Assembly (NCBI GenBank): GCA_947447485.1
Contig: CANFJP010000002.1
Location: forward strand, 1-62,350
Direction: 5' to 3'
Length of the DNA stretch: 62,350 bases
Source: Chitinophagaceae bacterium
Lineage (GTDB): Bacteria > Bacteroidota > Bacteroidia > Chitinophagales > Chitinophagaceae
Shown here: piece by piece, positions 59,149 to 59,620 of the stretch
Layout of the letters: each line of letters opens with the position of its first letter
How positions within the stretch are numbered: position 1 is the stretch's first letter
Position numbers and translations under genes: made by a program
The notes under the pieces: model-generated
Databases searched by the model: none
The model's input: only the letters and a program-made list of their open reading frames with translations
What the model was told of the DNA's origin: nothing

Positions 59149-59236
59149 GGAGAGTTGGCAGAGCGGTCGATTGCGGCAGTCTTGAAAACTGTTGACTGTA
59201 ACAGGTCCTGGGGTTCGAATCCCTAACTCTGCGCCA
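59149..59236 (+). tRNA. tRNA-Ser(UGA), encoded CCA
   Basis: Class II cloverleaf: acceptor GGAGAGT/ACTCTGC (G2:G71 mismatch), anticodon loop CTTGAAA with TGA at 59183-59185, long variable arm, T-loop TTCGAAT, discriminator G, CCA 59234-59236. Confidence 0.95.
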
Positions 59237-59245
59237 GAAAAAATC

Positions 59246-59270
59246 AAATGCCCCCCAAAGGGGCATTTTT
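59246..59270 (+). terminator. Rho-independent terminator of tRNA-Ser
   Basis: AAATGCCCC-CCAAA-GGGGCATTT plus T tract. Confidence 0.88.
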
Positions 59271-59422
59271 CGTTGAACGAGCGATGAAAGTTTACTTTCA
59301 AAAGTGAGTGAAATGAAAAATGTGTCGGAACGAAGTTTCTGCATTTGATTTTTTGTATGCGGAAACCCTTCCGATGTCCGAGCAAAGCGAGGACAATCCC
59401 TAACTCTCCGCCAAGCTTTTAC

Positions 59423-59449
59423 AAAACCCACGATTTCGTGGGTTTTTTT
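59423..59449 (+). terminator. Second terminator hairpin following the duplicated tRNA tail
   Basis: CCCACGA-TT-TCGTGGG flanked by AAAA/TTTTTTT. Confidence 0.85.
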
Positions 59450-59620
59450 ATGAACGACAACGAACCAAGCAATGCTTGAGTGAGTTGGGATGATTGAAAA
59501 AAGCTGCAAAGTTTTGCAAAAGCTTGAAGCCTCCCCCATTTGGCATCATGCAATAATCCTTTTCACTCGCGTTGCGAGTAATCCTCATAAGAAAATAAAT
59601 AAAGAAATGGTAAGAATAAA

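Follow-up and report, generated by a model that had tools for sequence, protein, structure and literature searches.

A structured repeat element directly behind tRNA and tmRNA genes of Bacteroidota, a candidate rtT-like tRNA trailer

The closest known system to the repeats described here is that of the tyrT/RtT repeats of E. coli (RF00391). These lie directly behind a tRNA gene, occur in tandem, and repeat the tail of their own tRNA. At tyrV of E. coli K-12, a copy of the tail recurs at a spacing of 178 nt, and it has the same T-loop start (AATCC) as in the Bacteroidota element reported below; the junction reads ..TAATCC, and a hairpin of the GAGCGAAGCGA type stands just 5′ of the tail copy. 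The RNA annotated at this locus, RttR, is 171 nt long, with its start 8 nt past tyrV and its end precisely at the CCA of the tail copy. RttR has been linked to the stringent response. Other described sequences share some of these features. The small GIY-YIG units and the SegB unit of phage lie after the terminator of a tRNA and end in a hairpin-disrupted copy of the 3′ part of that tRNA. The REP/REPIN and ERIC-like repeats are short intergenic imperfect palindromes, sometimes arrayed; they have no fixed association with tRNA ends and carry no copy of the neighboring sequence.

The window, that is, the whole stretch of 62,350 nucleotides analyzed here, comes from a draft assembly of a Chitinophagaceae bacterium (1.83 Mb in 155 contigs, 94% complete). 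It carries a tRNA-Ser(UGA) gene flanked by a nitroreductase gene and ribH/ribBA, and two units were found behind this gene: 59237–59413 (tail copy included) and 59414–59559. Their parts are listed below with the scores of two covariance models, R1 (derived from four units that all lie outside the window) and R2 (built from 62 units).

59149–59236, + strand: host gene tRNA-Ser(UGA), with its tail at 59218–59236
59237–59394, + strand: unit 1 of the putative trailer element (P1, A, B, C, linker, and D variant); R1 47.7 bits, E 3.6e-9; R2 83.4 bits; predicted fold −58.5 kcal/mol, z −5.2 against shuffles
59238–59251, + strand: P1 5′ arm of unit 1, AAAAAATCAAATGC
59246–59268, + strand: hairpin A of unit 1, terminator-like, AAATGCCCC CCAAA GGGGCATTT
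59264–59322, + strand: hairpin B of unit 1, CATTTTTCGTT (59264–59274) with AATGAAAAATG (59312–59322), cap GAAAGTTTACTTTC (59286–59299); conserved in R1/R2
59327–59339, + strand: hairpin C of unit 1, GGAAC GAA GTTTC, with a GNA loop
59341–59354, + strand: P1 3′ arm of unit 1, GCATTTGATTTTTT
59376–59394, + strand: hairpin D variant of unit 1, GTCC GAGCAAAGCGA GGAC, immediately 5′ of the tail copy
59395–59413, + strand: tail copy, 18/19 identity to the tRNA tail
59412–59427, + strand: P1 5′ arm of unit 2, CAAGCTTTTACAAAAC
59414–59559, + strand: unit 2 of the putative trailer element, with greater divergence and no tail following; R2 47.3 bits, E 1.3e-7; predicted fold −42.8 kcal/mol, z −3.9 against shuffles
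59511–59526, + strand: P1 3′ arm of unit 2, GTTTTGCAAAAGCTTG
59542–59559, + strand: hairpin D of unit 2, GGCATCATGCAATAATCC, the true third boundary by the covariance model end

The original prediction held that the tail of the tRNA recurs in a diverged repeat module behind it. The tail AATCCCTAACTCTGCGCCA (59218–59236) is indeed repeated as AATCCCTAACTCTCCGCCA (59395–59413), at a spacing of 177. When the 400 nt downstream of the tRNA were shuffled 20,000 times with dinucleotide composition kept, none of the shuffles reached this identity of 18/19, and a search of both strands of the window found no other site within four mismatches of the tail. The two internal anchors that had been pointed out are also present (TGAACGA at offset 177 and AGTGAGT at offset 176); two exact 7-mers at offsets 176–178 compare with 0.085 expected (P 0.016). 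The repeat units behind tRNA-Ser(UGA) are thus confirmed as real, and their origin by chance is ruled out by the shuffles together with their recurrence elsewhere. The third boundary, which had been placed at a hairpin at 59565–59584, is better set at GGCATCATGCAATAATCC, with its end at 59559, where unit 2 ends in the covariance model. The strongest feature of each unit had been overlooked: it is an inverted repeat, formed by 59238–59251 and 59341–59354 (14/14) in unit 1 and by 59412–59427 and 59511–59526 (15/16) in unit 2. Protein-coding potential had been judged not evident, and the ORFs called mechanically there are unsupported. Rfam families gave matches to tRNA, tmRNA, and RNase P only; the sub-threshold matches in the window (Leu_leader and others) were judged to be due to chance.

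The likeness to the E. coli repeats stops short of membership. The RF00391 model gave 137.5 bits on E. coli, the positive control, whereas at its gathering score it matched neither the window nor 14 Bacteroidota loci. Conversely, R1 gave only 7.7 bits on E. coli tyrT, over 13 model positions, and R2 gave no match there. Moreover, the E. coli repeats are without P1 arms and are confined to one tRNA species, whereas the Bacteroidota element has many hosts; the protamine-like ORF tpr is annotated in E. coli only, and the Bacteroidota unit has no credible ORF. The Bacteroidota element is therefore not a member of RtT as defined, although by analogy it may work like RtT. In the open-access literature searched, we found no published description of such an element, and it appears to be uncatalogued so far.

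The element comprises about 150 bases and has, from the 3′ end of the tRNA, the order P1 5′ arm, hairpins A, B, and C, P1 3′ arm, a C-rich linker, and hairpin D. In the predicted structure, P1, A, B, and C form what looks like a four-way junction resembling a cloverleaf. The P1 arms vary with the tRNA, with their complementarity kept: AAAAAATCAAATGC/GCATTTGATTTTTT in unit 1, CAAGCTTTTACAAAAC/GTTTTGCAAAAGCTTG in unit 2, ATCAAAAAGTCC/GGACTTTTTGAT at Arg, and AAACACTATCAAGCC/GGCTTGATAGTGTTT behind a Pro tRNA of a relative (G009). In most units, hairpin A with its T-run, which together are terminator-like, lies directly behind the tRNA, and the same T-run is the 5′ strand of hairpin B. Hairpin C is of the type GAGCGAAGCGA with a GNA loop, and the GNA loops of both C and D are closed by C-G. 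Hairpin D imitates the T-arm of the host tRNA: it retains the T-stem strands of the host (CAAG/CTTG at Pro, GGG/CCC at Ser, GTG/CAC at locus L189), and the T-loop TTCGAAT is swapped for a small hairpin of the type ATCACCGAAGGTAAT. The D variant of unit 1 was also found in loci L213 and L173/L193. What comes after D is the own tail of the host at 13/16 or better in 36 of 72 cases; otherwise, the copy stops after AATCC and a few bases, and unit 2 of the window ends with AATCC and no further tail. Complete tail copies agree with the adjacent tRNA at a mean of 12.1/16, as against 8.4/16 with the tails of other tRNAs, and another unit sometimes comes after the tail copy. At both Ser loci of the present genome, the tail next to the tRNA body mismatches the 5′ strand of the acceptor stem, whereas the distal tail copy pairs with it perfectly; the mismatches are G2.G71 in Ser(UGA) (59149–59236) and T7.T66 in Ser(GGA) (L009, 1138–1225). 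The Ser(UGA) of the nearest relatives has the distal version of the tail.

The original prediction had proposed, as its test, a search for the unit beside other tRNAs, with each copy carrying the tail of its own tRNA, and such units were found at many tRNAs and at tmRNA. In the same genome, they occur also at Ser(GGA) (contig 6), Gln(UUG) (contig 15), and Arg(UCU) (contig 23). R1 found unit 1 of the window blind, at the score listed above, and likewise the Ser(GGA) unit (46.9 bits), and it gave matches in 46 of 148 related genomes. At 61 of the 74 loci among relatives, no more than 15 nt separate the start of the element from the end of a same-strand tRNA or tmRNA (the gap is 0 in the window); most of the exceptions are at a contig edge or follow a tail that has no tRNA body. 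R2 gave matches in 26 of 297 genomes spread phylum-wide, and its 28 distant loci lie directly behind a tRNA (21 loci) or behind a tail (the other 7). Its specificity can be seen from 51 control loci (Ser tRNAs without a unit, GIY-YIG loci, and E. coli tyrT), which yielded two weak matches, the best at 23 bits.

We also scanned GTDB blindly, with one genome per species, for the 19-nt D hairpin GGATCACYGMARGTAATCC by sequence only. At least 116 stretches were found, as compared with about 15 expected by chance according to our own arithmetic. Among the matches listed, nearly all stretches belong to Bacteroidota, a tRNA lies upstream on the same strand at 74 of 111 sites, the distance from the tRNA to the first copy of the hairpin is usually 111–155 nt, and 61 of 80 loci contain the full element with a score of at least 45 bits. 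Two further patterns were less useful: the matches of GATCAATGAANNTAATCC were mostly coding, and only the tRNA-linked ones were kept; a long gapped pattern was too strict (3 matches). Altogether, the hosts include Gln, Pro, Arg, Leu, Ser, Val, and Met tRNAs and tmRNA, and by the hairpin scan also Tyr, Cys, and Lys tRNAs. At the tmRNA locus (L206, contig C20 of G128), the element lies immediately 3′ of the gene, P1 reaches about 20 bp, hairpin A has no T-run, and the own tail of tmRNA comes after D. On these matches, the two units of the window are members of a Bacteroidota-wide structured family located immediately 3′ of tRNA and tmRNA genes, in the same orientation. As far as sequence allows, the existence, position, and fold of this family can be regarded as practically certain.

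Some matches stand apart from the others. Units behind tRNA-Pro occur in two metagenome-assembled genomes labeled Sphingomonadales and Alphaproteobacteria (L297 and L308), and either binning contamination or transfer may account for their placement outside Bacteroidota. Arrays with a shorter spacing around the D hairpin (about 105, 115, 121, and 45 nt at L307, L342, L327, and L336, respectively) are perhaps reduced variants. Among 2.9 million viral contigs searched for phages as carriers, one match was found, behind a tRNA-Ser-like tail, and phages were rejected as carriers.

The fold itself appears to be under selection. Double changes occur at all 37 pairs, with strong covariation in every helix. 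The covariation score was 0.618, as compared with 0.170 for shuffled sequences and at most 0.114 for slid structures, in alignments (A4 and A5) that were fitted to the structure and thus favor it in this score. When Watson–Crick rules only were applied, the median stem length was 13 pairs for P1 (5 in shuffled sequences) and 16 pairs for B (6 in shuffled sequences). P1 was missed by RNAalifold on the mixed alignment A2, because the arms are misaligned there. The mismatches in hairpin B are GA/AG (122), GT/TG (76), and AC/CA (6), and outside the T-runs GT exceeds AC by 38 to 5 (P 2.5e-7). On the opposite strand, the excess of G.A and G.T would become one of T.C and A.C; it therefore argues that the sense strand of the tRNA is the one that folds, and for hairpin B we take strand-specific selection on the sense fold to be shown in this way. 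Folding as RNA is the simplest reading of this pattern. Folding as sense single-stranded DNA is possible, since G.A and G.T are better tolerated than other mismatches in DNA too. The mismatches in P1 have no strand bias (19:19) and are too few to show one.

Among the three options offered originally, the structured noncoding RNA array is the best fit, and a mobile component also stood, in view of near-identical units at different tRNA loci. The att-like option gained no support: no integrase gene or island was seen between the tail copies, and their 177 nt hold a conserved fold instead of a credible ORF. We give a probability of roughly 0.6 to the reading that these units are an rtT-like tRNA-trailer RNA element, vertically inherited and spreading between tRNA loci. 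The units show a consistent position, a conserved fold with compensatory changes, a copy of the tail or T-stem of their own tRNA at the 3′ end, and tandem arrays. About half of the copies lack a complete tail after D, which counts against this reading.

Both vertical persistence and spread between loci are shown by comparing units. Orthologous tRNAs with matching flanks carry units at Ser(GGA) of G000 and G124 (91% over 1510 nt) and at Gln of G000 and G072 (72.6% over 1586 nt), and further orthologous sets were found at Arg(ACG), Leu(CAG), and Pro(GGG). Near-identical units also occur at different tRNAs: unit 1 of the window, at Ser(UGA), is 92% identical over 202 nt to the unit behind Ser(GGA) of G105, and the Gln and Pro units within G027 are 84.7% identical. 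Behind Arg(ACG) in G026, four near-identical units are arrayed at 153 nt. In most close relatives, the element is absent from Ser(UGA), which ends with one simple terminator hairpin; the element is therefore dispensable there. This spread, the sporadic presence with empty sites, the arrays, and the C-G-closed GNA loops of C and D would also suit the main rival, a MITE-like mobile DNA element specific for tRNA ends, in which the tail copy would be a target duplication and the hairpins would be recognized as single-stranded DNA by a trans-acting enzyme. No autonomous partner was found for it: no element locus contains a GIY-YIG ORF, so such a nuclease was rejected as the partner, and dependence on Y1 transposases, as in REPIN/RAYT, was rejected since element-rich genomes (e.g., G105, G027, and G080) are without PF01797. 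Moreover, a passive insert would not need the compensatory changes seen at orthologous tRNAs over 72–80% DNA divergence. We consider this rival rather unlikely; it is compatible with the trailer-RNA reading.

Other rearrangements were observed at tRNA genes of these genomes. In related genomes, small free-standing GIY-YIG ORFs adjoin tRNAs (L090–L119): a tRNA is present at 17 of the 24 loci with small ORFs, and at 10 of them the tail of that tRNA occurs a second time, as against none of 6 loci with long GIY-YIG proteins. The usual order is an intact tRNA, a terminator, the ORF, a broken tRNA copy, a tail, and a terminator; in the broken copy, an arm (mostly the anticodon arm, also the D or T arm) is swapped for a GC-rich palindrome. 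On contig C80 of the present genome (L011 and L119), a broken tRNA-Met copy lies upstream, with hairpins in the D and anticodon loops. These loci look like a SegB-like homing unit. On contig C41 of the present genome (L010), the tail of tRNA-Phe and a near-identical terminator are repeated 1286 nt downstream, a pattern suggestive of insertion at the 3′ end of the tRNA. At L050 (G032), the 3′ part of tRNA-Ser and its terminator are repeated in tandem, with a double hairpin inserted just behind the T-loop sequence GTTCGAATC; this repeat is distinct from the Bacteroidota trailer element.

A second rival would derive the units from tRNA tandem duplication by homing nucleases of the GIY-YIG type (phage SegB-like) that cut in the T-loop, the units being decayed leftovers of the repair. 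The published cut motif of SegB, RAWTSGAAC (PMC13096335), read on the other strand as GTTCSAWTY, corresponds to the T-loop GTTCGAATC; this would explain both cutting in many tRNA genes and the unit boundary, which does fall in the T-loop. D retaining the T-stem with its loop replaced, and the small GIY-YIG ORFs lying between copies of the same tRNA in the same group, also agree with such an origin. The small GIY-YIG units differ from the element in carrying a nuclease gene, in having mostly the anticodon arm disrupted, and in lacking the P1/B/C/D fold. Against this origin, R2 has no credible match in 30 GIY-YIG loci. Besides the lack of a GIY-YIG ORF in element loci, one genome with the element, G017, has a single GIY-YIG match (a 602-residue frame) and no small ORF, and the conserved cloverleaf-like fold would be left unexplained. 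We regard this origin as improbable. Lastly, an elaborate transcription terminator or transcript-end stabilizer of tRNA genes, releasing no RNA, would account for hairpin A and its T-run, but is highly improbable, given that the same tRNA in relatives ends with one simple hairpin, that the tmRNA unit has no T-run at A, and that B, C, the P1 3′ arm, and D are conserved beyond the terminator.

According to the trailer-RNA reading, transcription would read through from the tRNA into the element, which would form a trailer of the tRNA transcript. Since hairpin A resembles the own terminator of the tRNA and precedes most of the structure, readthrough must be assumed. The trailer would fold behind the acceptor stem, and tRNA 3′-end processing would then set it free as a small RNA. 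With a complete tail copy, the 3′ end of this RNA would imitate that of a tRNA, like the 3′ end of E. coli RttR. Recombination between tail repeats may yield the arrays, and units may be copied into trailers at other tRNAs; there, their 3′ end would adopt the T-stem and tail of the new host. More tentatively, and with considerable doubt, the family may represent a phylum-wide class of tRNA-linked RNAs, in which the 3′ part of a cloverleaf-like trailer imitates the T-arm and tail of the same tRNA and thereby yields either a regulatory RNA that is set free or a spare 3′ half able to compete with or replace that of the tRNA.

The tyrT repeats of E. coli seemed to be a curiosity of one locus, and the Bacteroidota family is much larger with the same architecture. 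Its fold is well defined and its hosts are numerous tRNAs as well as tmRNA, in a phylum whose members matter both in the gut and in the environment. The function of such repeats can be approached through it by comparison. Its covariance model can be deposited and used on existing RNA-seq data. The family would also be a new case of a sequence that moves between tRNA loci while taking on the tail of its host.
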